64,000 bases of DNA, from NCBI GenBank assembly GCA_002501655.1, contig DANY01000043.1:1-64000 (forward strand), written 5' to 3'. The position numbers and the translations under genes are program-made. Below, one piece after another: positions 22,562 to 62,717 of this stretch. How positions within the stretch are numbered: position 1 is the first letter of the stretch; every line of letters starts with the position of its first letter. Under the pieces are notes generated by a model. It searched no databases. It was not told the DNA's origin and worked only from the letters and a program-made list of their open reading frames with translations. This stretch comes from Methanoculleus sp. UBA303. Lineage in GTDB: Archaea; Halobacteriota; Methanomicrobia; Methanomicrobiales; Methanoculleaceae.

Positions 22562-22620
22562 GAGAACTCAACGTACTGCTATATCCCTTTTCTGTGACAC
22601 GCGTCTACACGTCGGGTCTG
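22562..22620 (-). promoter_or_regulatory. repeated envelope promoter, copy 1
   Basis: On the minus strand: upstream box CAGACCCGACGTGTAGACGC, then GTGTCACAGAAAAGG (BRE), GATATAG (TATA, 22579-22587) and ACGTTGAG downstream. It lies about 90 nt upstream of the exported-protein gene starting at 22493. It is one of ten near-identical copies in the window (see findings). Confidence 0.85.
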
Positions 22621-22712
22621 TCCGATCGCTTCGCTACCGAAAAACAGTCGGCAAGAGCCCGGGGCCGAGCCGAACGGCGGAGATCAGATCCTCCCGGCGG
22701 GACCGCGGTCGT

Positions 22713-22970
22713 TCAGTCCCCCGGAGTGGCCGGGGAGGGCCTCCCGACCCGGATTGCGAGCACCCCGCAGGAGAGCGCCGCTGCTGCAGAGAGAGCACCG
22801 AAACCCGGCGCGGCGACAGCCGGGTCGTCCGGGGCCGCCACGAAGATGTCGTCTCCATCGCTCACTGCGATTGCCCGCCCGTCGGGGGACCAGTACGGAA
22901 AACCGTCCAACTCGGGAGTATCGGTGAGCCGGAAGACCTCGGCCGCGGCTGCGGTTCCCTCAGTAAGGCT
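22713..22970 (-). pseudogene. internally deleted TolB-like protein gene
   Basis: The minus strand encodes AAAAEVFRLTDTPELDGFPY and then a single WSPDG repeat running straight into AIAVSDGDDIFVAAPDDPA, the C-terminal PGFG motif and a hydrophobic anchor (GVLAIRVGR). The full-length relative at 58856 starts and ends almost identically but has seven propeller repeats between. I infer recombination between the first and last WSPDG repeats. The signal peptide is also lost, because the frame runs into the preceding exported-protein remnant. Confidence 0.75.
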
Positions 22971-22981
22971 TGTTCGTAGCA

Positions 22982-23527
22982 TCAGTCCACCAATGATCGG
23001 TCTACAGCGACTAGAACGGCTCTCGGGGGGATAGTTATCGAGTTCAAAGAGCGGGGATGAGATGAACTTGACCGGAAGGTTGCTGATACCCATCGCCCTT
23101 CCCCGGCTCTCGAGTGTCCCGTACAGGTTATCCATCGCTTCGGGATCCATCGTCCGGTTTTCAGCGATGGAGACGAACACGTAACCTTCAATATCATAAC
23201 CGAAACCGTGAATCGGACCGTCAGGATAGTACCAAGGCTTGATATCGCACCTGGCATCGGCCACAAACTTATCGAGGCCATCTAGGTGCGCCGCATCTCC
23301 GCGTCTTTGAGGACGGGTAGTGCCCCATACCTGCGAAGAACAAGATCATGCGCATTCAGGTACTCGACACCAGCCTGAATGTCAGCCTGAGAGATCTCCT
23401 CTACAGGCGTTTCTTCAACCACTGGCGTACCAGGACCGATCGGTGTTGCAGAAACCGTACCAGCAGATACTAGCACAAATAGTATCAGTGCTGCCAAAAA
23501 CAGTGGGAACCCAAAGCCCGCCTTCAT
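22982..23527 (-). pseudogene. frameshifted exported protein gene
   Basis: From ATG 23525-23527 a signal peptide (LFLAALILFVLVSAGTVSA) and a mature part (ISQADIQAGVEYLNAHDLVL, YGALPVLKDAEMRRT) end at a TAG at 23282-23284. One frame over, the sequence continues as DGLDKFVADARCDIKPWYYP and YDIEGYVFVSIAENRTMDPE, with no start of its own. The two halves read as one protein of about 170 residues, so a single indel near 23285 broke it. The 81-residue N-terminal product could still be secreted. It is served by repeated promoter 2, about 190 nt upstream. Function is unknown. Confidence 0.65.
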
Positions 23528-23666
23528 TCTTCTGTTACCTCCATTGTTCGCTACACAAACAGAGGAAGAAAGGACCGTATCCGCAAGTGCGTACTAACTT
23601 CCTCGGTATCCAGGGTGCGTCATCCGGGACGTCAGACCTGGGGATGGGCGCCCCCCGCGCATCTCA

Positions 23667-23686
23667 GGATACCGATTTCGGTATCC
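23667..23686 (-). promoter_or_regulatory. hairpin in the mRNA leader
   Basis: GGATACCGA, a TT loop and TCGGTATCC form a perfect 9-bp stem in the leader transcribed from repeated promoter 2. The same hairpin with one mismatch lies at 60929-60948 in the leader of copy 9. With only two loop bases the DNA may act as a palindrome rather than the RNA as a hairpin. Confidence 0.5.
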
Positions 23687-23692
23687 ACGCAT

Positions 23693-23751
23693 GAGAAGTC
23701 AACGTACTTCTATATACCTTTTCTGCGGCACGCGTCTACATATCGGGTCTG
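23693..23751 (-). promoter_or_regulatory. repeated envelope promoter, copy 2
   Basis: On the minus strand: CAGACCCGATATGTAGACGC, GTGCCGCAGAAAAGG, TATATAG (TATA at 23710-23718) and ACGTTGAC. It drives a leader of about 165 nt before the exported-protein gene at 23527. About 150 bp around it resemble copy 9 (60850-61014). Confidence 0.88.
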
Positions 23752-23860
23752 TTAGTTCGATTTGATACCAAAAAGCAGCCGTCAAGAGCCCGGAACCCGG
23801 GCCGTGCCGAACGGCAGAGATAGGATCCCCGCCCCGGCAGGGCCGCGGCCGCTCCGGTCA

Positions 23861-24340
23861 TCACTCGCCGATCGATGCGGCGACCTTCGTTATCTCACCT
23901 GCGGGGAGTCGCCCCGTCATGCAGAAGGAGGCATCGTTCCAGTTCCACCGGAGCAACCAGAGAGAGCCATCCGAGGGATCGTCACCCTCGTAGACCAACC
24001 GGCCCTCGATGCCGTCGCCCTGGACGATCCGTTTCTCGTTCCCGGCGACCGTCGGGCCGGGGCACGGGGCGTCCGGGGACGAGAGCCTTGTGACTCGGAG
24101 GTCGCCGGCGGTGCTGGTGTAGATGAGCGTGACGCTGCCGTCAGAAGAGCAGGTGGCGTTTGCAAAGACGTAGCCTTCAGGGAGGTAGGACGGCACGGGA
24201 ATGTCGGGGCCGAAGACCTCGCGGGCCTCATCGAGCGTGCCTGCGTATTCAGGCGTGACCGCCGCCGGCTCCGTGCCGGTGCACCCGGCAGCGGCAATGA
24301 AGCAGCAGAGCAGGATAATGGGAGGGAGAATGGGTTTCAT
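23861..24340 (-). CDS. DUF4367-like lipoprotein
   Basis: A 159-residue lipoprotein with signal IILLCCFIAAAGC (Cys20 lipidated). The mature part resembles DUF4367 domains: VPSYLPEGYVFANATC at the start, LRVTRLSS in the middle, and GRLPAGEITKVAASIGE as the closing helix. Such domains occur in envelope lipoproteins and anti-sigma-like proteins; the function is unknown. ATG 24338-24340 is the natural start of the signal peptide. Repeated promoter 3 lies about 120 nt upstream. Confidence 0.78.
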   Translation of the reverse strand: MKPILPPIILLCCFIAAAGCTGTEPAAVTPEYAGTLDEAREVFGPDIPVPSYLPEGYVFANATCSSDGSVTLIYTSTAGDLRVTRLSSPDAPCPGPTVAGNEKRIVQGDGIEGRLVYEGDDPSDGSLWLLRWNWNDASFCMTGRLPAGEITKVAASIGE

Positions 24341-24440
24341 AACGATTCCTCGGTGCGGATGCCCGGAGTTGCGCGGCCGACCATGGAGGGAAGAGAGAGG
24401 CATGCTCCCCTGTAGGGGGCCGGCTCCGGCATCCGCACAG

Positions 24441-24500
24441 TGAGGCTTTCGCCCCGACCTATATACCTTTTCTGTGTCGGGGACATGCATATCGGGCCGG
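24441..24500 (-). promoter_or_regulatory. repeated envelope promoter, copy 3
   Basis: On the minus strand: GGCCCGATATGCATG, CCGACACAGAAAAGG, TATATAGG (TATA at 24460-24468). The downstream ACGTTGAC is not conserved here. It lies against the stop codon of the hemerythrin gene and serves the lipoprotein gene at 24340. Confidence 0.8.
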
Positions 24501-24908
24501 TCAGGAGAGGCCGTGCTCATGGAAGCAGTCGGTGTAGCGCGTATCCGACCCCCGGATGTGAGTCGCCACCCACTGGCTGAGGAAGTTCATGACCTGAATC
24601 GAGAGGCCGAGCCTGCCTTCCTCGAACCCCTGCGCAAACTCGCCGACCTTCGCGACAAAGGCCTGGTGCTCACGCCGATGCGCGGCAAGGCCGGCATAGC
24701 CGAACTTCTGCATGTACTGCTCCTCGGCCGAGAAATGATACTGCGTGTAGGCGGCAAGATCCGCAAGCACCTTACCGAGAACATCTTTCCCGCGTTTTGC
24801 AAGCATCGCATCGTGGAGGTCGTTGATGAGCGATACAAGCCGCTGGTGCTGGCCGTCGATCTCTTTGACGCCGACGGAGAGGTCGTCGGACCACTTCATG
24901 AATGTCAT
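24501..24908 (-). CDS. bacteriohemerythrin
   Basis: A 135-residue hemerythrin domain with the di-iron ligands spread as in the family: GQHQRLVSLIN, YTQYHFSAEEQYM (HxxxE), HRREHQAFV and ATHIRGSDTRY. The fold binds oxygen reversibly and in anaerobes acts as oxygen sensor, carrier or scavenger. I use ATG 24908 (MTFMKWSDDLSVG), which matches the usual family start; a start at 24935 would add nine residues. An inverted repeat lies upstream at 24941-24958. It is monocistronic, with promoter copy 3 just beyond its stop. Confidence 0.9.
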   Translation of the reverse strand: MTFMKWSDDLSVGVKEIDGQHQRLVSLINDLHDAMLAKRGKDVLGKVLADLAAYTQYHFSAEEQYMQKFGYAGLAAHRREHQAFVAKVGEFAQGFEEGRLGLSIQVMNFLSQWVATHIRGSDTRYTDCFHEHGLS

Positions 24909-24940
24909 GATCTGGGATGGTGCCTCCCTCCGCATAAATT

Positions 24941-24958
24941 GTTCGCTTTTTTACGAAC
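24941..24958. promoter_or_regulatory. inverted repeat upstream of hemerythrin
   Basis: GTTCG and CGAAC flank an 8-bp CTTTTTTA core, 33-50 bp upstream of the hemerythrin start. The place and dyad form suggest an operator. No regulator is identified. Confidence 0.35.
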
Positions 24959-25002
24959 ATAGAGACGATGAACACCAACCATCGCCCATCAAGCCGGTGA
25001 TC

Positions 25003-25036
25003 ACTTATAACACGGCGGCGGACCCTCTAATCAGGA
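25003..25036 (+). promoter_or_regulatory. promoter of M28 peptidase, copy B
   Basis: CTTATAAC (TATA) and CCCTCTAATCAGGA repeat the copy-A promoter at 18815-18848. The leader is about 20 bp longer than in copy A. Confidence 0.55.
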
Positions 25037-25080
25037 CACCGGCCGCGTAATGGATTCCGCGCAGCCGGGGAGACGATACC

Positions 25081-26829
25081 ATGCAGCAACTATCAATACG
25101 GACGGCCGGTGCCGTGCTCCTGATCGTGCTCGCCGGGATCGCACCGGCGGCCGCTCTCGATGAACCGACAGCCGATCCCGCAAGGATCGAGGAGATGACC
25201 CGCGACCTCTGCACGTTCGAGCGAGCAGAAGGGTCGGAAGAGCGAACGGCGGCGGCGACCTATATCGCCGGTGCGATGGAGGAACTTGGGCTCTCGGTCG
25301 ACACCGCGAGGTTTGCATATACCAACTGTTACTTTGACCCGCCGCTCAGTCTCTCCTCAAACATCATCGGCGTCAGGGAGGGATCGACCGACCGGATCGT
25401 CGTCGTATCCGCACACTACGACACCGCCACACCGTACGACACCGCCGGCCCGGAGACGCCCGGCGCCGACGACAACGCTGCAGGCGTCGCGACGATGCTT
25501 GAGGTCGCCCGGCTCCTCGACGACATCCCCTTGAACCAGACGGTCTACTTCATCGCCTTCGGCGGCGAGGAGACCGGGCTTGACGGGAGCAGGCGGTGGC
25601 TCTCCGACAACCCGGACCTCCACGACCGGATCGTCGTCGCGATAAACCTCGATTGCATCGCCTCCGGAGACCGGCTGCAGGCGACGGCGCTCCCTCAGCA
25701 CCGGTGGATCCTCGATGCGCTCCCGCCGTCGGCGTGCCTCGGGGAGACGCCTGCGCAGTCGCTGGCCGAGGCACAGGGAGACGAGCACGCTTTCCGTCTC
25801 GCCGGGATACCGGCGCTCCGGATCTACGAGCGGGACAGTCACCTGATCACCCATACCCCCGAAGACCGGCCGGAGCGGCTCAACTACACCCTCGCCGCCG
25901 AGTGCGCACGGGTCGTCGCCGGGACGGTTGTGGGGCTTGATGCGGCCGGCGACGAGCCTGAGATCAATCTTTGGGTCGAGAACGGGACGGTGACGTTCAC
26001 GGCCACGGACAACGCCTTGGTTGAGGTGATCGTCGACGGCACCAGCCTCGGGATGCTCCTGTCCGGGTCGGTGACCCTCCCGGGAGGGTCACACGTCGTG
26101 CAGGCGGTCACCTACGGCCCCACCGGGACGAAAGCGGTCGCGACGGTCATGGGGGAGGGGGTGGAGATCGTGCCGCCGGCGGCATCCGGGAGCGGCATCG
26201 CTATTCCTTTTGGGAGCATAGCCGAACCCGGCGAAGAACCTCCGTTCCACTTCGGATATGCGCCAACCCTGCTTTCATACCACCTCGACCGGCCGGACGA
26301 GGTCGCCAGGGTTGACGGTTACTTTGACGGGGTCCTGATCCGGGATCTCGAAAACGACCATGCGGTGATCCCGGTCGCAGGGCCGCACTCCTTCACGGCC
26401 GTGGCCTACGGAGCCGACGGCGCGGTGCTCGGGGCCGACCGGGACGACTTCGCACTGCAGGGTTTCAGGAGCGCGCATCTCGACGGCGGGCTCCTGGAGG
26501 TCAATGAGACCGGCGGGGTTACCTGTTCCGCGTCGGCCCGCACCTACACCTACACCTACAATCCCGACGAGCGGTATTATATCGTGGTGGGATGCGACTA
26601 CCGGGACACCGCGGACGTGTTTCTGCAGATGGCGGCGTTTCAGGTGGAACGTCCCGACGGTTATAAGGATGACCGCCGTTTCTTTGACATGCCAGTCCTC
26701 AACGACTCCCGGAGGGAGGAGAAAACGGTCATCCTGGACCCGGAGGGGCCGGGCACCTACCACTGGACCGTCTCCTGCAGCGAGGGGGACGGAAGGGCCG
26801 CGGAGACCGGGAGCCTCGTCCTCCGGTGA
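25081..26829 (+). CDS. secreted M28-family aminopeptidase, copy B
   Basis: A 582-residue paralogue of the peptidase at 18867 with the same layout: signal peptide (AVLLIVLAGIAPAAA), zinc ligands in VSAHYDTAT, PGADDNAAGVATML, GGEETGLDG, INLDCIASGD and LITHTPED, then a PEGA-like segment and beta-sandwich domains. It differs mainly by an 8-residue insertion after HYDTATP that repeats part of that loop, and by scattered substitutions. The active site is intact, so both copies should work. The partner gene that converges on it (27009-27545) has decayed, unlike in block A. Confidence 0.92.
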   Translation: MQQLSIRTAGAVLLIVLAGIAPAAALDEPTADPARIEEMTRDLCTFERAEGSEERTAAATYIAGAMEELGLSVDTARFAYTNCYFDPPLSLSSNIIGVREGSTDRIVVVSAHYDTATPYDTAGPETPGADDNAAGVATMLEVARLLDDIPLNQTVYFIAFGGEETGLDGSRRWLSDNPDLHDRIVVAINLDCIASGDRLQATALPQHRWILDALPPSACLGETPAQSLAEAQGDEHAFRLAGIPALRIYERDSHLITHTPEDRPERLNYTLAAECARVVAGTVVGLDAAGDEPEINLWVENGTVTFTATDNALVEVIVDGTSLGMLLSGSVTLPGGSHVVQAVTYGPTGTKAVATVMGEGVEIVPPAASGSGIAIPFGSIAEPGEEPPFHFGYAPTLLSYHLDRPDEVARVDGYFDGVLIRDLENDHAVIPVAGPHSFTAVAYGADGAVLGADRDDFALQGFRSAHLDGGLLEVNETGGVTCSASARTYTYTYNPDERYYIVVGCDYRDTADVFLQMAAFQVERPDGYKDDRRFFDMPVLNDSRREEKTVILDPEGPGTYHWTVSCSEGDGRAAETGSLVLR

Positions 26830-26857
26830 ACCTACCTGAACTCCGATGCCGGTAACA

Positions 26858-26893
26858 GTCCAATATATCGGACATATGTCCAAAAGTTTGGAC
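26858..26893. promoter_or_regulatory. 36-bp nested palindrome
   Basis: A perfect 12-bp palindrome GGACATATGTCC (26870-26881) sits exactly at the centre of a wider dyad whose ends are GTCCAA (26858-26863) and TTGGAC (26888-26893). In all, 28 of 36 positions are symmetric. It lies 29 bp after the peptidase stop in an otherwise gene-free stretch. It looks like a regulator or recombinase site rather than a terminator. Confidence 0.5.
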
Positions 26894-27008
26894 GCTCGGG
26901 GGGAGCACCTCAGGGGGCCCTCCCCTCGTTATCATATTGCAATCAGGCGCAACCATACATGCCCGGGCGAGCCCCCATGTCGCGGGTGTTTAAGGTCTTC
27001 CTCCGCCG

Positions 27009-27545
27009 CTAAGCCCTACTCGATCTCATAGCACCAATCAGGCCCTTTACGAGGCTTGCAACCCGGCTTCCGGTAACATCCGGAGAGCCCTCGGTCCCGT
27101 CAGGCATTACGCGTCGGTCGCCAGAGGCCAGAACTTCGGGATGATGTCCCGCTCATCATAGATGACATGCACGATCTTCTGCACTCCGTCGATCTCGACG
27201 GTCCCGGCTTGGGCGATGACGAGCGACGTCGTGCCGCACCGGACCGTCCCGAGGATCACGCCGCCGCCGACCGAGAAGGATGCGGAACTCCCGGGTTCCC
27301 CGGCGACCGTCCCCTCGAAGAACCAGATACGGGGCAGGGCGGCAGCGAATGTGCCCGACTCATTCTTAACGAAGGCCCGGGCGCCTTCGGCAACAGGGCC
27401 CGGCACCGGTTCGATGTCGAGCACGAACTCCCGGCCGGAGAGGCGGGAGGTTTGTGAGGGTCACCTCGCCGGCCGGCGGGACCGGGCTGAAATACGCAGG
27501 ATCGGCCACGGCCACGTGTGTCGTAGGGCCGGCCGGCATCCGCTC
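27009..27545 (-). pseudogene. decayed copy of the HVIYDE exported protein
   Basis: The minus strand matches the protein at 20641 in pieces: GPTTHVAVADPAYFSPVPPA, then, after loss of about 30 codons and a frame change, EFVLDIEPVPGPVAEGARAF to HVIYDERDIIPKFWPLATD, then a 4-bp deletion and a further frame change into EGSPDVTGSRVASL. The N-terminal signal region is missing because transposon sequence begins at about 27546. It is clearly non-functional. Confidence 0.85.
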
Positions 27546-27772: not shown

Positions 27773-28792
27773 TTATCCCTGAGATTGCAGTCCCAATCTC
27801 ATAATATTGATCGCTGCGTTCTGATCCCGATCCATCACCAACCCACAATGCGGGCAGGAATGAACACGATCAGAAAGCGTCTTTGCGACGACCATTCCAC
27901 ATCGGGAACACTGCTGAGACGTGTTTCTGGGGTTCACCAGGATCACGCGCGAGCCAGCCTCTTCCGCTTTGCTCTCAGTGATCGAGATGAACATCGTCCA
28001 GGCGACATCGGCAATGCTTTTTGCCAGGCTGTGGTTTTTCTGCATGTTTGCGATATTCAGATCCTCGAACACAATCGTCCCGAACCGATCCACCAACTTC
28101 CGGGAGGTCTGGTGAGCAAAATTGAGCCGTCTGTTGGCGATCCGTTCGTGAACGTGCGCGACGATCTACCGGGCTTTCTTCCGTTCTGGAGTACCTTTCT
28201 CCGCTTTTGAGAGCCTTCTCTGTGCTTTTGCAAGGGCTTTCTCGTCCGTGCGGAAGAACCGTAGATTCTCGATCTTTTCTCCGTTCGAGAGGGTGGCAAA
28301 GGATTCGAGACCAACATCGATCCCGACTGTGGTCTCCTTCCGTGGTGCAGGCGTGGGATCGTACTCGACCGAGAAGCAGGCATACCACTTCCCGGTCGAT
28401 GACCGCCAGATCGTGAGCGTCTTGATTGTCCCTTCAACCGGGCGATGAAGGACGACCCTCACGTCTCCGATCTTCGAGAGATGGAGGTGGTTTCCATCGA
28501 GGTTGAACCCATACTGAGGATAGGTGAAACTGTCGTATCGCCCCTTCCCCTTGAACCGAGGGTATCCAAGGGTTTCTCCTGCCTTTACGCGCCGGAAGAA
28601 GGCTTTGAAGGCAAGATCAACGCGCATCTGAACATTCTGAAGAACCTGAGAATGAACCTGGTTTAGATCGGGTCGCTCCTTTTTCCATTGGGTCAGGATC
28701 TTGTTGGTTTCATAGAGAGAAATGGGACGCTGCTCCTGCTCCCACGCGTTCTTTCGCAATGCGTAATAAGGGTGCCGGAGGACGGCATTCAT
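27773..28792 (-). pseudogene. tnpB: tnpB (IS605 OrfB) with in-frame TAG, 5' truncated
   Basis: One frame of 340 codons encodes a TnpB nuclease with a single in-frame TAG at 28166-28168. Before it lie HSQVLQNVQMRVDLAFKAFF, GYPRFKGKGRYDSFTYPQ and TTVGIDVGLESFATLSNGEK (RuvC-I aspartate). After it lie IVAHVHERIANRRLNFAHQT, IVFEDLNIANMQ (RuvC-II glutamate), the zinc ribbon CSRCGM and CPHCGL, and DRDQNAAINI (RuvC-III). All three RuvC motifs survive. The first 30 or so family residues (KYRLYP segment) are replaced by MNAVLRHPYYAL, which follows another right-end hairpin. Premature termination would abolish the nuclease unless the TAG is read through. Confidence 0.88.
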
Positions 28793-40764: not shown

Positions 40765-40817
40765 CGCCCCCGCAAGTTAGCAAGTTAAAGTGCTCGGGGA
40801 AACGAGCGGCATAGAGT

Positions 40818-40875
40818 GAGGAGTCAACGTTCTCCTATAAATCCTTTGTGATACGCATCTACGTATCGGACCTGC
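40818..40875 (-). promoter_or_regulatory. repeated envelope promoter, copy 4
   Basis: On the minus strand: CAGGTCCGATACGTAGATGC, GTATCACAAAGG, ATTTATAGG (TATA 40835-40844) and ACGTTGAC. The BRE is slightly different from copies 1-3 but the upstream and downstream boxes are kept. Confidence 0.83.
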
Positions 40876-41030
40876 TACATCAACTCCTGACCGGAACCGA
40901 CCGCCACGAACCCGGTACCGGGGAACCGGAAAACTATCCACGATACAGGCAGCCCTTAAGATATCCCCGTACTGCCACTCCCGGTCGCACCAATCAATCC
41001 GGGCTCACCCCGCAGACGGGCCGTCAGTTT

Positions 41031-44348: not shown

Positions 44349-44433
44349 TCGCTCACCAGAGGGGGCCGATCTGCAGCACACCCGATCATACCCTCAACCA
44401 CACAGGCGCACCGCGTTGAGCGGCCATACAATG

Positions 44434-44492
44434 ACCTGGGCGTTCTGGCATATACCTTTTCTGTCACAATCCTCTACACTTCCAGGGATGTG
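44434..44492 (-). promoter_or_regulatory. repeated envelope promoter, copy 5
   Basis: On the minus strand: AAGTGTAGAGGATTG, TGACAGAAAAGG, TATATGCC (TATA 44448-44456) and GAACGCCC. It has the BRE/TATA and upstream box in diverged form, 90 nt upstream of the ATG at 44348. Confidence 0.75.
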
Positions 44493-45559: not shown

Positions 45560-46378
45560 TCATCCCGAATCCCTAGATCCCCGGAGCTTCACGGCAGCGT
45601 AAGGTGCCTGCTTCCCCGCCTCAGGGTGTGCGCAGGAATTCCACGGTTCATGGTCCTCTAGATACTCATCCACATCCGGGCAGAGATAATGTCGCATATT
45701 TCGCCCGTCCCTCTCGTTTCGGATGATACCATCCCAGATCAACGACTTCATATGGCAGGTGACATTCGGGCCCGACATGATGAGCCTGAACGCGATATCC
45801 TTTCTCGTGCATCCCGGGTGCCGCAGGACAAAGCGTAATATCCGGCTCTTCTGGTGATCATGGAGATATCCGGCGATCTTCCTCTCCAGGTCGGAGAAAG
45901 GATCTGCATTGACAAAATAACTCACTCCTCCGGAGTTCTGCTCCGGGAAAACCTTACCCACCCTGCATAACACTTCCACGTGGTATCTGGTGGTCCCGAT
46001 GTTCATACAGAGCACCCGGGAGAGAGCTTTCATAAGGATTCCAGGGTTCTCCTGTATGCACATATACACCGCATTTCGGTTTTCGTTGTCCAGGACGTTC
46101 CGGTACGTGACTCTTTTCTGGCCGAGGCGCAGCCATATGGAGAGCGAGAAGAGGATCTGTATCGGGATGAAGAGCGCCGGGGCGGATACGCACACGAATT
46201 CAATGGTAAGGATGTTCAGGGGAACATTCCAGATATACAGCGGAGTCGGATCCGAAGGTAACTGCTCCGGGTATGGGCCATGAACTGGCTGAATGGGAGT
46301 GGCGCACGCGACAGACGGCAGTAGCAGGATGCAGAAGACAATCAGAGCAATTCTGGCAATCCGTGACCCTGGAGCCAT
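45560..46378 (-). CDS. membrane-bound tandem winged-helix regulator
   Basis: A 272-residue protein with a signal-anchor (IARIALIVFCILLLPSVACA), a second membrane segment (FVCVSAPALFIPIQILFSLS) and two cytoplasmic winged helices: AVYMCIQENPGILMKALSRV with NIGTTRYHVEVLCRVGKV, and ILRFVLRHPGCTRKDIAFRL with SGPNVTCHMKSLIWDGII. This layout is common in Methanomicrobiales and suggests a membrane-tethered transcription factor that senses the envelope. ATG 46376-46378 sits about 24 nt from a good TATA box. Its place between exported-protein operons makes it a candidate regulator of the repeated promoters (inference only). Confidence 0.82.
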   Translation of the reverse strand: MAPGSRIARIALIVFCILLLPSVACATPIQPVHGPYPEQLPSDPTPLYIWNVPLNILTIEFVCVSAPALFIPIQILFSLSIWLRLGQKRVTYRNVLDNENRNAVYMCIQENPGILMKALSRVLCMNIGTTRYHVEVLCRVGKVFPEQNSGGVSYFVNADPFSDLERKIAGYLHDHQKSRILRFVLRHPGCTRKDIAFRLIMSGPNVTCHMKSLIWDGIIRNERDGRNMRHYLCPDVDEYLEDHEPWNSCAHPEAGKQAPYAAVKLRGSRDSG

Positions 46379-46399
46379 GGAGTTACATAAAACTAGTGG

Positions 46400-46418
46400 C
46401 AATAAAAATGTTTAGTTT
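46400..46418 (-). promoter_or_regulatory. BRE/TATA promoter of the membrane wHTH gene
   Basis: The minus strand reads AAACTAAACATTTTTATTGC, with the TATA part at 46401-46410, about 25-30 nt from the ATG at 46378. It implies a leaderless transcript and is unlike the ten repeated promoters. Confidence 0.55.
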
Positions 46419-47371: not shown

Positions 47372-47440
47372 GTCTTATCTTCCTCCAGATGGGGGGAACC
47401 CCACAAACTATTGCGGACGCATCACCGGGCGCCCCCACAA

Positions 47441-47505
47441 TGACTTGAACAGAACTCCACTTATAAATTCTGTCCCATTCCTTTACACGTTCTGGGGCTG
47501 TTATC
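47441..47505 (-). promoter_or_regulatory. repeated envelope promoter, copy 6 (diverged)
   Basis: On the minus strand: CAGAACGTGTAAAGG, GGGACAGAATTTATAAG (TATA 47460-47470) and GGAGTTCTG. Spacing between boxes equals that of the other copies, but the sequence is the least conserved of the ten. Confidence 0.6.
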
Positions 47506-48269: not shown

Positions 48270-48476
48270 TCACCCACTTATGCTTCGCAATCTCAGGCCA
48301 AAATAAATAAACGACAGCGTCAACGCCGAAGCATAAACTGCTCCGATCAAAAGCCGTGGGTCAGGCTCGATCCAGATTTTCAGTGAAGAGATAACCATCC
48401 ACAGAGGGAAGAACGCCAGGACGATGACCGGCACCGAAGAGGCTCTCAAAAGTTGGTTGGACTTATCTTCATCCAT
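48270..48476 (-). CDS. small two-helix membrane protein
   Basis: A 68-residue protein with a charged start (MDEDKSNQ) and two membrane helices (VPVIVLAFFPLWMVISSL and LIGAVYASALTLSFIYFGL). No known family. It is the first gene behind repeated promoter 7, 65-73 nt downstream of its TATA box, and is probably co-transcribed with the six-helix protein at 47600. Confidence 0.6.
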   Translation of the reverse strand: MDEDKSNQLLRASSVPVIVLAFFPLWMVISSLKIWIEPDPRLLIGAVYASALTLSFIYFGLRLRSISG

Positions 48477-48523
48477 GAGAACTCCTCCAGAGAAGTAAGC
48501 CGTTTACACCGGGATTCATGGTA

Positions 48524-48592
48524 GAGGGGTCAACGTCCTTCTATATACCGTTTCTGTGCCGCACGTTTACACATCGGGCCTGCCCAATCGAC
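48524..48592 (-). promoter_or_regulatory. repeated envelope promoter, copy 7
   Basis: On the minus strand: CAGGCCCGATGTGTAAACGT, GCGGCACAGAAACGG, TATATAG (TATA 48541-48549) and ACGTTGAC. Close to consensus. Confidence 0.87.
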
Positions 48593-55712: not shown

Positions 55713-55769
55713 GCTATCACCATCAGAGCATGGTATCGCGCCGGGATTGCCGGGCCTTCATGCATCATT

Positions 55770-57002: not shown

Positions 57003-57026
57003 CGGCCTCAATCCCCCCCGGCCACA

Positions 57027-57458
57027 TCAATCCCGGTAAATCGTCCCGACCCGGTAGTACCGGCCCTCGTACTCGAAGTACTTCCGCTTGCCGGTCTCGT
57101 TATCGAAGATGTAGGCATCGATCGTTCCCTGACCGATCTTCTCCGGGTACTCCACGCTCCCCACCAGCCGGATGTCGCCGGGCATATACGGGCCTCCCCC
57201 GGTGTTGTGCCCCTCGCCGCGGAGGATTGCGTCCAGAACCGGCAGCCCCCTGAACGTCTCTTCGTCGAGGCGGATGACGATACCCTCCCGGGCTGTCTCC
57301 TCGGTGACTTCATAGAGCAGGAGATCGTCGGGCGGGATGGTCGCAGCGATGTAGGAGGCAACAGCAGCGTAGCAGCCGAGCAGGAGGAGCCCGGCGACCA
57401 CGAACATGATGAGGTATCGCTTCAGCCGGGTGCTCTTTTCAGGGTGAGACGGAGTCAT
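57027..57458 (-). CDS. single-TM exported protein, HPALD family (divergent)
   Basis: A 143-residue protein with one membrane helix (LIMFVVAGLLLLGCYAAVAS) after MTPSHPEKSTRLKR. The outer part reads IVIRLDEETFRGLPVLDAIL, RGEGHNTGGGPY and YFEYEGRYYRVGTIYRD, the same order of motifs as its paralogues at 42612, 43086, 61145 and 61619 but with P-V-L-D in place of HPALD. Function unknown. Repeated promoter 8 lies about 115 nt upstream. Confidence 0.7.
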   Translation of the reverse strand: MTPSHPEKSTRLKRYLIMFVVAGLLLLGCYAAVASYIAATIPPDDLLLYEVTEETAREGIVIRLDEETFRGLPVLDAILRGEGHNTGGGPYMPGDIRLVGSVEYPEKIGQGTIDAYIFDNETGKRKYFEYEGRYYRVGTIYRD

Positions 57459-57550
57459 CGGTTCCCCTCACGAACAGTTGCATCTTCATCCATTTGTCCT
57501 CCTCCGGGGTGTTCGGTCCTCGGTGGACCCCGCACGGGTGTACCCACGCG

Positions 57551-57612
57551 GAAGAGGTCGACGTACTCCTATAAACGATTTCTGTGACGCGCATCTACAC
57601 GTCGGGCCTGCC
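57551..57612 (-). promoter_or_regulatory. repeated envelope promoter, copy 8
   Basis: On the minus strand: CAGGCCCGACGTGTAGATGC, GCGTCACAGAAATCG, TTTATAGG (TATA 57568-57577) and ACGTCGAC. The TATA core is TTTATA, as in copies 4 and 10. Confidence 0.87.
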
Positions 57613-57672
57613 GGAGCGGTCCCGATCCTGAAACGGCCCCCTGTGGGCAGGAAACCCGGGGCGCGCCCGCCC

Positions 57673-58140: not shown

Positions 58141-58142
58141 CC

Positions 58143-58661: not shown

Positions 58662-58784
58662 CTCTCAATCCTCCTGACCGTCGATGCGCACCCCGGACCC
58701 CGCGGAGTTTCCACGCACCACACGGTTCCGTTCACGCACTCCCACAACTTCCCCGGCGAGGGGCGACACCCCAGCATGAGAGCA

Positions 58785-58892
58785 GTCAAGTCTCCCCTCC
58801 ATGTCAATGATCGAGTACGACGAATAGAGGTAGAAGAACGCCGTGCTGTTATAGATCATAACGACCCTCTCGTTTTGGTCATCGAAGACATG
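58785..58892 (-). pseudogene. C-terminal remnant of a lipoprotein gene
   Basis: The minus strand reads HVFDDQNERVVMIYNSTAFF and YLYSSYSIIDMEGRLD, matching the last 36 residues of the lipoprotein at 55116 (HVFDERNKRMAMIYNDTTIF onward). Its first 11 codons overlap, in another frame, the last residues of the TolB-like protein. It marks a recombination junction. Confidence 0.7.
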
Positions 58893-60127
58893 TCACCATC
58901 CCTGCGGGGCGTCCGGATACGCCACAACTGCCTCCCGGCCCGGATTGCAAGCGCACCGATAGAAAACGCCGCGACAGCAGAGATTATCCCGAAGCCAGGA
59001 GTAGCAGCAGCCGGGCTGTCCGGAACCGCCACGAAGATGTCGTTTCCGTCGCTTACCGCAATCTTCTGCCCATCGGGAGACCAACGGTGCATCCGGAAGG
59101 TCAGATACCCCGGAGCAAGAGGCTGTAGGTCGGAACCCCCGGTGTCCATCACCCAGATCGACGACGGGGGACGAGACTGCGAGTAGAACGCGATCTTCTC
59201 CCCGTCCGGGGACCAGACCGGTGCGGTGTCGACGTTCCCCGAGGTCAGGTGCCGCAGGCTGCTCCCGTCGGCGTTCACGATCCGGACCCCGAACGAGACA
59301 TTGTCGGAGATGGGGTCGTAGGTCTGCACGGCATAGAGGATCTTACGCCCGTCGGGAGACCAGGAGAACTGCAGGACATCTTCCCCATCAGGAGTCACCT
59401 GCAGTTCACCCGACCCGTCGAGGTTCATCACCCAGACCACGGCCGTGCCGGAGGCCCGGGAGAGGTAGGCGATCCTATCGCCCCCCGGGTGCCACCGGGG
59501 CATCAGGGCATCGCCCGAGGAGGTGAGCCCCCGTCCTCCGCTGCCGTCGGGGTTGATAACCCAGATGTCGGCCTCTTTACGGATCTCCGAGAAGTTGATA
59601 TTCATCGAAGCACGACCGCCATGCTCATCGGCAGTTGCCTCCCTGATATCCGCGCCTCCGAAGAGGCACGACGTATACGCGATCATCCTGCCGTCCGGGC
59701 TCCACTCCGCCTCGCAACCCCGAGGGCCGTGCAGCCAGGGGACGACGTTTGTCCCGTTGGTCACCTGCACCGGACCGGTTCCGTCGGCGTTCATCACCCA
59801 GAGGTCGTATGAGCCCGATCTGTCGGATATAAATAAGATCTCCTTTCCGTCGGGGGACCAGGGGTTCGTGACGAAGAAGTCCCGCGACCCGGCCGGAGTC
59901 AGGTCCGTCCCGGCGGTCCCGTCGGCGGCCATCACCCGGATGGTCATATCCCCGGTGACGGGGTCGAACGAAGTGTACGCGATCCGTTCCCCGTCGGGAG
60001 ACCAGAAGGGAAACCCGTCCAACTCAGGGGTATCGGTGAGCTGGAGAACCTCGGCCGCGGCTGCGGCTCCCGGAAAGAGGAGGAGGCAGATCACGAACGG
60101 GATGATGCAGAGCCTTTTGAAGTTCAT
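58856..60127 (-). CDS. exported TolB-like beta-propeller protein
   Basis: A 423-residue protein: signal peptide (IPFVICLLLFPGAAAAAEV), then seven propeller repeats, each with a W-x-PDG-x2-IA-x-S core (FWSPDGERIAYTS, PWSPDGKEILFIS, EWSPDGRMIAYTS, RWHPGGDRIAYLS, SWSPDGRKILYAV, VWSPDGEKIAFYS, RWSPDGQKIAVS). The C-terminus has TPGFGIISAVAAFSIGALAI and RAGR, a PGF-type sorting tail. The final 11 residues come from an out-of-frame lipoprotein remnant. GAGG lies about 9 nt before the ATG. Such propellers bind partner proteins outside the cell membrane; the partner is unknown. An internally deleted copy is at 22713. Confidence 0.85.
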   Translation of the reverse strand: MNFKRLCIIPFVICLLLFPGAAAAAEVLQLTDTPELDGFPFWSPDGERIAYTSFDPVTGDMTIRVMAADGTAGTDLTPAGSRDFFVTNPWSPDGKEILFISDRSGSYDLWVMNADGTGPVQVTNGTNVVPWLHGPRGCEAEWSPDGRMIAYTSCLFGGADIREATADEHGGRASMNINFSEIRKEADIWVINPDGSGGRGLTSSGDALMPRWHPGGDRIAYLSRASGTAVVWVMNLDGSGELQVTPDGEDVLQFSWSPDGRKILYAVQTYDPISDNVSFGVRIVNADGSSLRHLTSGNVDTAPVWSPDGEKIAFYSQSRPPSSIWVMDTGGSDLQPLAPGYLTFRMHRWSPDGQKIAVSDGNDIFVAVPDSPAAATPGFGIISAVAAFSIGALAIRAGRQLWRIRTPRRDGDMSSMTKTRGSL

Positions 60128-60140
60128 GCTCTATGCCTCT

Positions 60141-60554
60141 TCAAGGAGTGATTATACAGGAACACGTAGCCTCCTCGGTCAGTATCGGCACACCGCTGAT
60201 GCAATAGCACTTGGCCTGGGTCGTAACCTCGACCGTGTAGGAGGGGGGAGGAGACGGAGACGAAGCGCCTATGTCTACCGAGCCCGCCTGTGTCGAAGTG
60301 CCGGGATAATGATATTCATACCGTCCATACTGACCGTCCCAGCTGGCCTTCACGATCACCGTCAGGTCGCAGCTGTAGCCCGGCCCGCGACACTCTTTCT
60401 CATGGAACGTGAAGCAACCGTTTGCAGACCATTCCACCGTAATGTATCGCGTACCGTCCGTCCTCTGGTATAATTTTGCGGAGATAATTTTTGCTAATGC
60501 ATTATACTTGAGTGTATGGACGGGACCACATGAACCAAGAAGTTGATCCGCCAT
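60141..60554 (-). CDS. cysteine-containing protein, function unknown
   Basis: A 137-residue protein without a signal peptide. It reads LLGSCGPVHTLKYNALAKII, YQRTDGTRYITVEWSANGCF, HEKECRGPGYSCDLTVIVKA and YTVEVTTQAKCYCISGVPIL, ending EEATCSCIITP. Eight or so cysteines are spread through a beta-rich sequence with a short Ser/Pro linker (SSPSPPPSY). This resembles small disulfide-rich secreted or virion-like proteins more than a cytoplasmic enzyme. It lies 13 bp before the TolB-like gene in the operon behind repeated promoter 9. Confidence 0.6.
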   Translation of the reverse strand: MADQLLGSCGPVHTLKYNALAKIISAKLYQRTDGTRYITVEWSANGCFTFHEKECRGPGYSCDLTVIVKASWDGQYGRYEYHYPGTSTQAGSVDIGASSPSPPPSYTVEVTTQAKCYCISGVPILTEEATCSCIITP

Positions 60555-60613
60555 AGTTAGTCCCTCCGCGAGAGAACCGGGTCTTCGATCTTCTCATATC
60601 TACATTTCAGCGG

Positions 60614-60790
60614 ATTTTCGTCCGGCCGTCTCAACGAGACTCGTCCGTGAAGAACATCTCGATCAGCGGCATCAGGTCCCCATCTCTTGCCGATTCCTTC
60701 ACATCCTGCCGCTCGGGGTCGCATACTCACACACTTGAGAGCAGCACTAGGGCCACCAAGGAGTGACCTCGCTTTGATGTTTCTGTTCAT
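60614..60790 (-). pseudogene. degenerate small lipoprotein gene
   Basis: Within the stretch after repeated promoter 9 the minus strand reads SLVALVLLSSV, an in-frame TGA at 60727-60729, then VCDPERQDVKESARDGDLMP and LIEMFFTDESR. If the TGA was once a cysteine codon this is a lipoprotein with a lipobox. The ATG at 60788-60790 (MNRNIKARS) is in a neighbouring frame, so a small indel also separates start and body. Alternatively the frame from that ATG (77 codons, arginine-rich) is used, which I think less likely. Confidence 0.4.
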
Positions 60791-60849
60791 CTACTTTCCT
60801 CCGTCTAATTATCCGGAGGTGAACGGAGCATACATTCAAGTACAGAGAA

Positions 60850-61014
60850 CGCATACATCCTCTTGCCTCCGGGCATGCGGGGTGCCTCATCCGGGCGTCA
60901 ACCGGGGATGGGCGGTCCCCGCATTTCGGGATACCGATTTCAGTATCCACGATGGAGAAGTCAACGTTCTTCTATATACCTTTTCTGTGACACGTATCTA
61001 CATGTCGGGCCTGG
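60850..61014 (-). promoter_or_regulatory. repeated envelope promoter, copy 9, with long leader
   Basis: The promoter proper (60955-61014, minus strand): CAGGCCCGACATGTAGATAC, GTGTCACAGAAAAGG, TATATAG (TATA 60972-60980) and ACGTTGAC. The leader that follows (to about 60850) matches that of copy 2 nearly throughout, including the GGATACCGA hairpin (60929-60948). Confidence 0.88.
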
Positions 61015-61144
61015 TAAATTGAATCAAACTGAGAAAACGCCACACCAACCCGGGAATCAGCACCGCGCAGATTGGTCCGGGGCAACCCGGACAATTGGCC
61101 CGCGGCCGGAGGGCAAGTGCCCTGTCGCCGGGACAATACTCCTT

Positions 61145-61591
61145 TCACGGCCACGTCGTCACAACCATGTAGTACGCCCCTTCGTACTCCAGGTGCGGGT
61201 GCACCCACGCCTCCCGGTCGGGGCCGTAGGCATCCTGGAGCGCCCGGCTCTCCGCATACGAGACGTTAGCGCCCCCGATGAAGCGCCGATCGCTGGAGCC
61301 CCACTCCCACGCCGACGGGTTACGCTCCTCGCCACGGATGACCGCATCGAGCGCCGGGTGGTCGACAAAGTCCTTCTCGGTCAGGCGAACGACCACGTTC
61401 TCTCCCGGCTCCACCCTCTCCATGACGTAGAGCATCGGCTGCCCGCCCGAACTCTCGTAGGCGTAGAGTATGAGGGCATCGGCGAGCATGAAGCCGAGCG
61501 CGACGGCGACGATGCCGGCAAGAACGCAGGCGAGAATAAGCCCCACCGTTTTGAATTGGTTGCCGGGTTCCGGTTTCCTATCTTCTTCCAT
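61145..61591 (-). CDS. single-TM exported protein, HPALD family
   Basis: A 148-residue protein: MEEDRKPEPGNQ, a membrane helix (VGLILACVLAGIVAVALGFM), YESSGGQPMLYVMERVEPGE, VRLTEKDFVDHPALDAVIRG and HPHLEYEGAYYMVVTTWP. It is nearly collinear with the protein at 42612, so the two clusters share a recent common origin. Function unknown. Third gene of the operon behind repeated promoter 10 (27 bp after the gene at 61619). Confidence 0.72.
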   Translation of the reverse strand: MEEDRKPEPGNQFKTVGLILACVLAGIVAVALGFMLADALILYAYESSGGQPMLYVMERVEPGENVVVRLTEKDFVDHPALDAVIRGEERNPSAWEWGSSDRRFIGGANVSYAESRALQDAYGPDREAWVHPHLEYEGAYYMVVTTWP

Positions 61592-61618
61592 TCCTGTTGC
61601 ACCTGTTTTGACCCGATC

Positions 61619-62023
61619 TTAGTGGAGTAGAACGCGGGTGGCGTAGTACACTCCGTCGTACTCGAGGTATGGCGCGCCCTTTGTATACACACCACAGGAC
61701 TCGGTGAGCACGAGGCATTCGACCCCCGTCATCGGGACCGACGCGTATTTCGGCATGTTGGGGTTGCTGTTGGCCTCCCGGATCGCGGAGGCAAGCACCG
61801 GGTGCTGCTTGAGATCCCGGTCGGTCAGGTGGATGGCGGGTGCATTCTGCAGATCCTCTTCCCCGACTACTTCCACAGTCAACTCCTGCGGAAGACCATC
61901 GATTCCCGTGATCAGGGCAACGAGGGCGGTATATACGAGCACAACCGTCACAACGAGGAGGACGACGCCGATGACGGCGGCAACCCCTACAGCAATCATG
62001 CGCTTGTTGTTTCCAGACTCCAT
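61619..62023 (-). CDS. single-TM exported protein, HPALD family
   Basis: A 134-residue protein: MESGNNKRM, a membrane helix (VAAVIGVVLLVVTVVLVYTA), AIHLTDRDLKQHPVLASAIR and a closing YLEYDGVYYATRVLLH. It pairs with the protein at 43086 just as 61145 pairs with 42612, and the gene order is the same in both clusters. The motif is slightly diverged (HPVLASAI). Function unknown. It lies 32 bp downstream of the gene at 62056. Confidence 0.7.
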   Translation of the reverse strand: MESGNNKRMIAVGVAAVIGVVLLVVTVVLVYTALVALITGIDGLPQELTVEVVGEEDLQNAPAIHLTDRDLKQHPVLASAIREANSNPNMPKYASVPMTGVECLVLTESCGVYTKGAPYLEYDGVYYATRVLLH

Positions 62024-62055
62024 ATGATCGTCACACCGGAATATTCCATGGGGCC

Positions 62056-62628
62056 CTAATCTATCGGAACGGGGGGTCCCGCAGGACAGAGCACATCCTT
62101 TGAACTGTATATGACGTGCAATGGGGACTCCGACTGCTCGGCGCGCGCACGGGGCTCGATCGGGACGATCCAGAACGTCTCGTTGCCGGAGGCTATGCTC
62201 CCGACGAGGACATTTTTCCCGGTCGTCAGGAGGATATCGCTTCCGTCAACGCCGACGATCGTTCCTTCGTAGGTGTTGATACCGTCATCGATCTGCTCGA
62301 AACTCATTCCGTGCTGCTCGGCCCGATACGCCGTACCGTGGATAGAAAGCGGGAGTCCATCCCGGATCTCTCGCGAGAGGGCAGCGTGGTCGAACGTCAC
62401 AACGTCGTACCGCTTGATGCCCTTCGGGATCTGCAGCTCTTCCGGCGCCGGGATCCCGGCGGCCGCGAGATCGGAGACCGACGTGGCGCCCGCGACGAGC
62501 ACGTTCATAGAGTCGCCGATGACCAGGATCGGTTCGTCGTCGGAACCCGGGGCATTTGCGCCCAGCGCGATCGCCGCTGCGATCAGGCATACCAGGAGAG
62601 CGATGCCTACGATGGGGGATCGTTTCAT
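62056..62628 (-). CDS. exported protein with HVIY motif
   Basis: A 190-residue protein with a signal peptide (IVGIALLVCLIAAAIALGAN). ILVIGDSMNVLVAGATSVSD is followed by KRYDVVTFDHAALSREIRDG, YEGTIVGVDGSDILLTTGKN, VLVGSIASGNETFWIVPIEP and LHVIYSSKDVLCP. The last four segments align in order with the protein at 20641, indicating a shared beta-rich domain. Function unknown. First gene behind repeated promoter 10, only about 50 nt from its TATA box. Confidence 0.7.
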   Translation of the reverse strand: MKRSPIVGIALLVCLIAAAIALGANAPGSDDEPILVIGDSMNVLVAGATSVSDLAAAGIPAPEELQIPKGIKRYDVVTFDHAALSREIRDGLPLSIHGTAYRAEQHGMSFEQIDDGINTYEGTIVGVDGSDILLTTGKNVLVGSIASGNETFWIVPIEPRARAEQSESPLHVIYSSKDVLCPAGPPVPID

Positions 62629-62659
62629 CCCGCTTCATCCTCCGGATCGTCCATGGGGG

Positions 62660-62717
62660 AGAGGTCGACCTTCTCCTATAAACGATTTCTGTCACAATCA
62701 TCTACACGTTGGGCCGC
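62660..62717 (-). promoter_or_regulatory. repeated envelope promoter, copy 10
   Basis: On the minus strand: CGGCCCAACGTGTAGATG, ATTGTGACAGAAATCG, TTTATAGG (TATA 62676-62684) and AGGTCGAC. It shares the TTTATA core with copies 4 and 8 and the ATTGTGACAG block with copy 5. Confidence 0.82.

Follow-up and report, generated by a model that had tools for sequence, protein, structure and literature searches.

The locus analyzed here raises the question of why one promoter should recur ten times in a single stretch of an archaeal genome, and what its copies regulate. In the window, i.e. the whole 64,000-nt stretch of Methanoculleus sp. UBA303 DNA that was analyzed, a sequence-only reading had described ten near-identical promoter copies. 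All were said to read to the minus strand and to precede small exported or membrane protein genes, and a dedicated regulator, possibly the membrane-bound winged-helix (wHTH) protein encoded at 45560, was proposed to act at their upstream box.

Promoter copies and the genes behind them

Every copy is present where it had been reported and on the minus strand (Table 1). Eight copies (22562, 23693, 24441, 40818, 48524, 57551, 60955 and 62660) form class I, and the copy at 47441, together in part with that at 44434, represents a sister class with the 3' end GTCATTGT. The six best copies have matrix scores of 73.6-90.3 bits; the 24441 copy has kept the BRE/TATA and part of the box, and the 40818 copy is matched by the model and missed by the ungapped matrix. 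The copies lie in clusters, and the window contains duplicated parts. The uniform orientation holds inside the window but not beyond it, where weaker plus-strand sites are present on the own-genome contig C37. A frame for an exported or membrane protein follows nine copies. Behind 60955, the signal peptide is out of frame, and the gene behind 23693 looks split; 77-aa frames like the one at the 60955 locus are also found in L118, L121 and L125.

Table 1. Coordinates of promoter copies, leader RNAs and genes in the window and of further promoter sites in the same genome
Feature	Position	Strand	Evidence or remark
Class I promoter copy (box, BRE, TATA, ACGTTGA..TCTC)	22555..22622	-	model E 1.2e-18; 82.5 bits
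Class I promoter copy, leader RNA directly after	23686..23753	-	model E 2.4e-18; 81.3 bits
Class I promoter copy, box degenerate	24435..24502	-	model E 2.6e-12; 29.5 bits
Class I promoter copy, 2-nt deletion	40811..40876	-	model E 1.4e-14
Promoter copy intermediate between classes I and Ib, end GTCATTGT	44424..44491	-	model E 3.2e-12; 58.6 bits
Class Ib promoter copy	47433..47500	-	model E 0.09; 34.6 bits; class Ib in relatives
Class I promoter copy	48517..48584	-	model E 2.6e-17; 73.6 bits
Class I promoter copy	57545..57612	-	model E 1.1e-18; 85.1 bits
Class I promoter copy, leader RNA directly after	60948..61015	-	model E 9.1e-20; 90.3 bits
Class I promoter copy	62652..62719	-	model E 1.5e-16; 88.2 bits
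Leader RNA	60812..60950	-	132 bits, E 2.3e-24; P1 hairpin, P2 hairpin, P3
Leader RNA, degenerate copy	23559..23688	-	57.6 bits, E 1.8e-9
First frame after leader 60812, 77 aa	60557..60790	-	signal peptide not in this frame
Exported protein behind promoter 22562	21552..22493	-	hydrophobic N-terminus
Membrane protein behind promoter 57551	57027..57458	-	
Exported protein behind promoter 62660	62056..62628	-	
Small membrane protein behind promoter 48524	48270..48476	-	
Tandem winged-helix protein, putatively membrane-anchored, subfamily A, proposed regulator	45560..46402	-	
New promoter sites beyond the window, same contig	C37:70213, C37:72799, C37:75472		model scan
New promoter sites, other contigs/positions	C11:3343; C9:279; C52:42916; C43:78731		model scan
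Weaker promoter sites	C37:75650, 76890, 78280, 79657	+	model scan

A promoter model built from sequence only, using nine window copies (47441 was left out), finds 16 sites in the own genome at E<1e-8, i.e. the nine training copies and seven new sites. A second scan used a matrix refined on its own matches with a threshold of 18 bits and covered 491 kb, made up of the window, six own loci and 20 stretches from seven relatives. It returned 98 matches, and none in the reversed sequence. Because an SD-led frame lies within 450 nt of 84 of these 98 matches, we rejected the idea that the repeat is the end of an insertion element; the only transposase-like frames recognised by eye (27773-28792) lie ~3 kb from the copy closest to them. 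The first gene encodes an exported or membrane protein behind 72 of 84 promoters, compared with 154 of 779 random positions. Thus, the scan of own and related genomes proposed earlier bears out a promoter set for exported and membrane proteins, and this set is conserved over the genus (34/35 Methanoculleus genomes).

In relatives, look-alikes of the products of 57027..57458 (in L066, L074, L079 and L082) and of 48270..48476 (in L074, L077, L079 and L082) are encoded behind the same promoter. Of ten exported proteins, two have Pfam matches, to a transglutaminase-like core and to DUF6345, and there is one sub-threshold metallopeptidase match; NCBIfam gives nothing above its cut-offs for eight. 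PDB sequence matches to phospholipase C (E 0.068), a capsid protein (E 0.11), an antibody (E 0.16) and matrix metalloproteases (E 0.17 and weaker) are weak and were not taken as evidence.

A leader RNA and a common signal peptide

The sequence-only reading had passed over a second conserved part, a ~140-nt leader RNA with three hairpins, and the signal peptide that comes after it. The leader is present behind 16 of the 98 class I matches, and in these copies leader and signal peptide together make the conserved unit ~240 bp longer. In the leader at 60812..60950, P3 (CCGGAGG..CCUCCGG) is followed by the SD GGAGG and an ATG at 60790. A promoter match of at least 20 bits precedes 54 leaders, 52 of which start 64-66 nt after the start of the 68-nt match, at the expected transcription start site (TSS).

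Leader matches are found at E<=1 in at least 32 of 35 Methanoculleus genomes and at E<=0.01 in 51 of 199 genomes and 11 of 37 genera of the class; one of the 51 genomes (G068) looks false. The survey of other genera covers 29 of 30 loci (L169 was left out), and L158, which looks false, was dropped. Judged by these matches, the leader is spread over the order Methanomicrobiales. By comparison with Rfam, it is no catalogued RNA family: there were 0 matches in the window at the gathering score and 0 in eight loci at E<=1, and the best match of the leader region had E 6.5, with scores far under threshold.

The leader sequences point to a conserved structure. Over 24 pairs in the 150 matches listed, 91.1% of cells are paired and 21 of 24 pairs have two-sided changes versus 5-13 when slid, counts obtained on an alignment that was itself fitted to the model. 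At fixed positions and alignment-free, P1 is 78.6% paired versus 30-48% when slid. Folding of 72 of the 77 genus leaders and 27 of the 28 from other genera gave z below -2 for the whole leader in 62/72 and 20/27, for the P1 segment alone in 46/72 and 12/27, and for the P2 segment alone in 36/72 and 12/27, respectively. When 135 leaders were aligned plainly with MAFFT, mutual information did not single out the helices. In having a conserved structured domain upstream of the gene, the leader resembles riboswitches, a likeness of structure and not of ligand binding.

A hydrophobic N-terminus follows 65 of 87 leaders and, in other genera, 22 of 26 (from 28 leaders, two cut at contig ends being left out). 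A shared form of the signal peptide is recognisable in 10 of 16 protein groups that have no similarity in their mature parts, and, compared across groups, identity is 42% over the first 28 residues and 14% over a control stretch. As read from these translations, the leader usually precedes a common signal peptide on proteins with unlike mature parts. Because the targets are exported and their mature parts unlike, no metabolic ligand suggests itself.

The computed mean probability of the SD being unpaired goes from 0.57 at 37 °C to 0.65 at 55 °C; with so little change, we rejected an RNA thermometer. When CCGGAGG is held unpaired in the computation, pairing of CCUCC with the SD rises above 0.5 in 52 of 61 leaders (of 77 in the genus) compared with 14/61 for a control block, and in 19 of 23 leaders from other genera (of 26) compared with 3/23, a flip that partly follows from the ability of any CCUCC to pair with any GGAGG.

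Promoter classes and putatively membrane-anchored winged-helix proteins

The promoter classes differ in the upstream box: class I has GACGTGTAGA..ACAGAAA, class II TTCGG-N6-CCGAA and class III GGTGTTTGTCC, and Ib and Ic are further classes. Several of them precede one and the same leader type; 33 leaders have no promoter match of at least 20 bits, and these include 26 of class II and 6 of class III. Two TFIIB repeat matches are present in each of 24 other Methanoculleus genomes, and hence one TFB per genome; the own draft genome has no such match, presumably because of a gap. The earlier argument that the box exceeds what a basal promoter needs is upheld, since leaders of genes of the same kind also stand behind promoters that have no such box, although each of the 24 genomes has one TFB.

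Which proteins could read the boxes? Pfam matches the protein at 45560..46402 to HTH_HVO_0163_N (1.2e-12) and HTH_24 (9.6e-11), both domains are found in all three family members scanned, and two hydrophobic stretches per protein were read by eye in three translations. In the genus, 36 of 89 wHTH genes lie near a leader, compared with 1.65 expected, and 53 of 89 are more than 5 kb from any listed leader (150 leader and 89 wHTH matches listed, one genome length of 2.3 Mb). In 18 genomes of other genera (G068 left out), 11 of 65 wHTH genes lie beside a leader. The promoter class agrees with the subfamily of the adjacent wHTH protein for all 32 nearest neighbours, against a mean of 9 and a maximum of 20 under permutation, an agreement that comes from orthologous loci and amounts to about four independent pairs. 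This set comprises 32 of 35 pairs, three proteins lying outside the fetched DNA, and the 35 come from 36 near pairs, a second wHTH gene beside the same leader being left out; classes were assigned by motif, by which G009:C3 is Ib and not II, as a loose expression had it. The promoter count also rises with the size of the wHTH family (Spearman 0.67, n=35).

The guess at a membrane-bound wHTH protein was therefore good in kind, in that the family adjoins leaders far above chance, and the role of regulator is that of a candidate. The particular protein at 45560 goes instead with the sister class, the Ib copy at 47433..47500 being upstream of frames of which the last is the wHTH gene, and we rejected a role for it in regulating the eight class I copies. 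Its paralogue wHTH-B (C37:73588-74379) is encoded beside class I leaders. However, wHTH-B is absent from 9 of 24 genomes that are at least 90% complete, and G003, G005, G010, G029 and G032 keep 7-17 promoters without it, which contradicts one regulator per class in the case of class I.

A proposed two-layer model and its relation to known systems

Based on these findings, we suggest a two-layer module, of DNA and RNA, for the expression of exported proteins in Methanomicrobiales. In the first layer, promoter classes with a common TATA/TSS geometry and different upstream boxes would be chosen by membrane-anchored tandem wHTH proteins, which most likely read the boxes from the membrane and many of which are encoded beside a leader gene, often divergently. 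In the second layer, which would apply to a minority of class I targets and also behind other classes, the transcript would start at the three-hairpin leader. In P3, the SD-like strand CCGGAGG is predicted to pair with a CCUCCGG that immediately precedes the true SD. This fold would leave the SD mostly free; if a ribosome or factor occupied CCGGAGG, CCUCC would pair with the SD and close it. In this way, the leader may set translation through an exposed or hidden SD. We give the model a little better than even odds (roughly 0.57), a confidence lowered by the 82 of 98 class I matches without a leader, i.e. by two layers that overlap only in part.

Alternatively, the promoters may be strong and constitutive, with the box as an activator site that ensures high expression of surface proteins and the 5' hairpins as stabilisers that protect the mRNA or hold a ribosome on standby, and with no switching. 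We consider this doubtful but worth serious attention: leaders fold stably, the computed ground state leaves the SD mostly free (0.57) and the CCGGAGG strand resembles an SD, whereas several boxes before the same leader suggest separate regulation and GCCCGGAGGC is conserved more strictly than a stabilising hairpin requires. Control by a leader peptide, in which the first GGAGG would serve a short ORF ahead of the gene as its SD and translation of that ORF would govern P3 formation, appears unlikely. Such an ORF was first favoured as the conserved element. ATG, GTG or TTG lies 4-12 nt past the first GGAGG in 90 of 127 leaders, with ~35% expected from a codon-frequency estimate, and the frame enters the main gene in some copies (L085 16626, L069 15836); however, 37 of 127 leaders lack a start codon at this distance and, by eye, neither frame nor length is conserved, and we came to favour the ORF less.

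It is very improbable that promoter, leader and signal peptide are alike merely through recent duplication and conversion of a gene cassette, with the RNA unselected. The clustering of copies and the duplicated parts of the window would fit such a history, but in other families of the order the leader retains its pairing despite many changes of stem letters. Finally, the position of the BRE inside the conserved part might suggest that an alternative TFB, and not a regulator at the box, sets the promoter class; as the 24 other genomes have a single TFB each, we rejected such a regulon and give this explanation hardly any weight.

A bolder form of the two-layer module is put forward tentatively: the leader could be a new class of archaeal regulatory RNA over Methanomicrobiales, a translation switch that acts on much of the secretome by way of a single common leader and signal peptide, with membrane-anchored regulators picking interchangeable promoter classes. 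Export would then be linked to control at the level of DNA and RNA, possibly with secretion or ribosome state as the sensed signal. To our knowledge, archaea offer few examples of structured regulatory leaders. Here, one ~140-nt RNA precedes many kinds of exported proteins in many genomes of an important methanogen order. The module would be a compact, testable case of archaeal translational control, proposes target genes for membrane-bound regulators that are numerous in Methanomicrobia and offers a route to list the regulated secretome from sequence.

A search by title and start of abstract, covering mostly freely accessible literature, found no paper describing the promoter or the leader. 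The main text of Weinberg 2010 (PMC2864571), as far as accessible, contains no mention of Methanomicrob- or Methanoculleus, and the available part of PMC4158269 describes archaeal islands of small exported proteins and not a promoter-leader unit.

In translational riboswitches and other SD-masking leaders, alternative pairing in the 5' leader can hide the SD. The leader described here would resemble them in its predicted alternative pairing and differs in that it has no Rfam match, is archaeal and precedes exported proteins without mature similarity.

Transmembrane transcription regulators (TTRs) unite a DNA-binding domain with a predicted membrane part in one protein and are enriched in Methanomicrobia, according to PMC10269533. 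The wHTH protein at 45560 and its paralogues are similar in having a DNA-binding domain and hydrophobic segments that may lie in the membrane. What goes beyond TTRs is the proposed set of targets near the regulators, made up of promoter boxes, the leader RNA and exported proteins; at two wHTH loci, the gene immediately upstream encodes a small exported protein. For ArnR/ArnR1 of Sulfolobus, we know of no common leader RNA. These are membrane-bound one-component archaeal regulators of surface structures, as described in PMC6396743, and differ in lineage and in targets, i.e. archaellum and pili.

We also know of no common structured leader RNA for the YSIRK/GXXS proteins of Gram-positives. Among these, one conserved signal peptide is found on different surface proteins, as stated in PMC5962339 and PMC11898559. 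The signal peptide linked to the archaeal leader differs in sequence and belongs to another domain of life, but follows the same theme of one conserved form on different surface or exported proteins.

Promoter copies and the genes behind them

All ten promoter sites named in the sequence-only reading are present in the window where it had placed them, and its description of them as near-identical holds for most copies but fails for 47441 and, in part, for 44434, which carry the differing sequence of a sister class, Ib (GTGTAAAGGAATGGGACAGAATTTATAAG..GTCATTGT). A sequence model of 68 positions, built on nine of the ten copies with 47441 omitted, detected 16 sites at E<1e-8 in the own genome, a 2.67-Mb Methanoculleus draft, i.e. 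the nine training copies, three sites farther along the same contig (C37, whose positions 1-64000 are the window) and four on different contigs. At E<=0.01, 34/35 Methanoculleus genomes have matches, and 29 of these carry 5 to 30; outside the genus, 9/46 genomes have 1 to 6 matches, mostly weak. A refined matrix, trained on its own matches and run over 491 kb (the window with six loci of its own genome, plus 20 stretches from seven related genomes), gave 98 matches of at least 18 bits versus none in the reversed sequence. We regard the existence of the promoter set itself as almost certain.

The same reading had placed these promoters before genes for exported or membrane proteins, and this is borne out. 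An SD (Shine-Dalgarno)-led frame of at least 55 codons lies within 450 nt of 84/98 matches, and 72 of these 84 frames have a strongly hydrophobic segment; by contrast, 1500 random positions in the same loci gave 779 SD-led frames, of which 154 have such a segment. Read by eye, an ABC-transporter ATPase lies behind the match at C43:78731 and an ABC-transporter permease family behind the promoter at C37:75650 and its relatives.

A leader RNA and the proteins it precedes

Several promoter copies are alike far beyond the promoter itself when the sequence is read downstream. A structure model built from 10 sequences of this shared 5' leader, an RNA of ~140 nt with three hairpins upstream of the SD, found it in 32/35 genomes of the genus at E<=1, one of which holds as many as 28 copies. 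With the threshold at E<=0.01, 51/199 class genomes have it, covering 11/37 genera and including other families of the order; the match in one of the 51 (G068) looks false. In 52/54 genus leaders with a promoter match of at least 20 bits, the leader starts 64-66 nt past the start of the 68-nt match, and by archaeal promoter geometry the TATA box of such a promoter should start transcription at this point. The leader lies behind only 16/98 promoter matches. Where a frame was found, most copies carry the SD and start codon in a stretch of about 14-31 nt after P3. UACUU, in the 3' half at the P3 loop region, is kept in 87/134 distinct leaders and in 18/28 leaders from other genera, and is a possible contact site.

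Features of the window and of the leader
Feature	Position	Strand	Description
Leader RNA	60812-60950	-	structure model match
Leader RNA	23559-23688	-	structure model match
P1 hairpin	5' end of leader		GGAUACC/GGUAUCC and variants
P2 hairpin	leader		GCGGGG/CCCCGC enclosing an inner helix, CAUCC/GGAUG or CACCC/GGGUG, excluded from the pairing tests
P3 hairpin	leader		base is near-invariant CCGGAGG paired with CCUCCGG
wHTH gene	45560-46402	-	tandem winged helices behind two hydrophobic segments (segments by eye)
Frame after main leader	60557-60790		77 aa, signal peptide out of frame
Two frames	22713-23527		81 and 183 aa, resembling (by eye) parts of one protein
Duplicated stretches	18851-21052 and 25065-27413		over about 2.2 kb, 80-91% identity
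Two frames	27773-28792	-	resembling IS605-type TnpB (by eye)

Among the best 150 of 152 leader matches (137 distinct), in an alignment fitted to the structure model, standard pairs fill 91.1% of cells and 21/24 pairs have two-sided changes, compared with 36-54% paired and 5-13 such pairs when the partner is slid by 1-3 columns. P1, taken at fixed positions without alignment in 112 distinct ends, is 78.6% paired with 106 two-sided cells, and sliding by 1-4 gives 30-48% and 24-65 cells. Relative to dinucleotide shuffles, the folding z of the whole leader is below -2 in 62/72 genus and 20/27 other-genera leaders; the signal is clear for the P3 segment (64/72 and 23/27) and less clear for P1 (46/72 and 12/27) and P2 (36/72 and 12/27). 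Mutual information, scanned over a plain MAFFT alignment whose centre is misaligned and whose sequences are related, did not recover the helices. Rfam gave no match in the window at gathering score, none at E<=1 in eight loci and a best E of 6.5 for the leader region alone. We hold it highly likely (about 0.9) that the leader is a conserved structured RNA.

Behind 65/87 genus leaders and 22/26 leaders from other genera lies a frame whose N-terminus is strongly hydrophobic. The 47 distinct leader proteins of at least 120 residues sort into 16 groups whose mature parts show no similarity at E<=1e-3, and their first 28 residues have a mean identity of 42% between groups versus 14% in a control stretch. 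Representatives of 10/16 groups share a signal peptide near MNGKIGMRAFSVLLAVLLVSVVMVPAVSA (45-86% identity to the consensus); it is doubtful in two (38 and 42%), and four have a different N-terminus (19-27%). The recurrence of one signal peptide across ten groups of dissimilar mature proteins argues that leader and signal peptide are one 5' unit on many different proteins. Frames similar to the 77-aa frame of the window follow leaders in three other DNA stretches (L118, L121 and L125), and its frame shift would therefore be old or functional. The apparent counterpart of the 81- and 183-aa frames in another stretch, L072, is a single 233-aa exported protein behind a leader; the window copy looks split.

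Promoter classes and wHTH proteins

A promoter match of at least 20 bits precedes 54/87 genus leaders. The other 33 have a class II promoter with the palindrome TTCGG-N6-CCGAA or a close variant (26), a class III promoter, GGTGTTTGTCCCA(G/T)AAA (six), or are truncated by a contig end (one); GACGTGTAGCTGATTGGGCCGGAAAA defines a further variant, class Ic. Class Ib precedes leaders in relatives, with a nearby wHTH gene from the same subfamily as that of the window. The class II palindrome was seen before the same leader in L067, L071, L073, L077, L080, L120, L126 and others, as well as in L142-L144. The best argument that the upstream boxes may be operator-like is that the rest of the leader unit stays the same behind different promoter classes. 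A change of general factor as the cause of these classes is unlikely because the 24 other Methanoculleus genomes searched show one TFB apiece.

The sequence-only reading had proposed the membrane-bound wHTH of the window, which has an 87% identical relative in Ca. Methanoculleus thermohydrogenotrophicum, as one candidate regulator. This proposal gains from the clustering of its family near leaders, but its own subfamily accompanies class Ib. Of the 89 family members listed for the genus, 36 have a listed leader no more than 5 kb away, where uniform placement would give 1.65. For 18 genomes from other genera the count is 11/65 against an expectation of at most 0.98, and all 11 belong to other families of the order; both expectations take no account of orthology. 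Of the 36 near pairs, 20 are divergent; in the others the leader gene lies downstream on the same strand (14) or upstream (two). The wHTHs adjoining leaders are on average 72-77% identical within a promoter class versus 29-45% between classes, and nearest neighbours among these wHTHs agree in the promoter class of their leaders in 32/32 cases (permuted labels: mean 9, maximum 20), corresponding to an independent sample of about four because the loci are orthologous.

A scheme with one regulator for each promoter class is countered by the distribution of wHTH-B, the paralogue neighbouring class I leaders. It was not found in 9/24 genomes at least 90% complete, and five of these nine (G003, G005, G010, G029 and G032) keep 7-17 promoters. 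Promoter number follows wHTH family size (Spearman 0.67 in 35 genomes, 0.62 in the 24 at least 90% complete) and is higher in genomes with wHTH-B (p 0.011); the four genomes that lack the family altogether carry 0-2 promoters, though each of them is 80-87% complete.

At two loci that were read throughout, C37:73140 and C50:18048, the gene just before the wHTH gene encodes a small exported protein; the one at C50:18048 has a PPC match just under the cut-off. The upstream ends seen at other loci suggest the same arrangement there. No such gene was seen upstream of the window's own wHTH. The pair of small exported protein and wHTH-B at C37:73140-74379 (L031:11141-12380), ~9 kb past the window end, is transcribed away from a class I leader gene.

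A possible RNA switch and known systems

The computed mean probability that the SD is unpaired is 0.57 over 61 genus leaders. With CCGGAGG held unpaired, the computed CCUCC-SD pairing exceeds 0.5 in 52/61 leaders versus 14/61 with the same block placed in P1, and in 19 versus 3 of 23 leaders from other genera, a pairing expected in part because GGAGG, CCUCC and GGAGG stand in a row. The unusual feature is the retention of this order across families. If a ribosome or protein were to occupy CCGGAGG of P3, CCUCC would be free to pair with the SD. We tentatively suggest such closing of the SD, at somewhat less than even odds, as the likeliest way for the RNA layer to act.

Leaders that mask the SD are already known. 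The literature searched, which took in few subscription journals, yielded no description of the promoter set or the leader. Membrane-bound one-component regulators are likewise known and are reported to be common in Methanomicrobia (PMC10269533). Compared with these known kinds of system, the module is built around an RNA matching no Rfam family.
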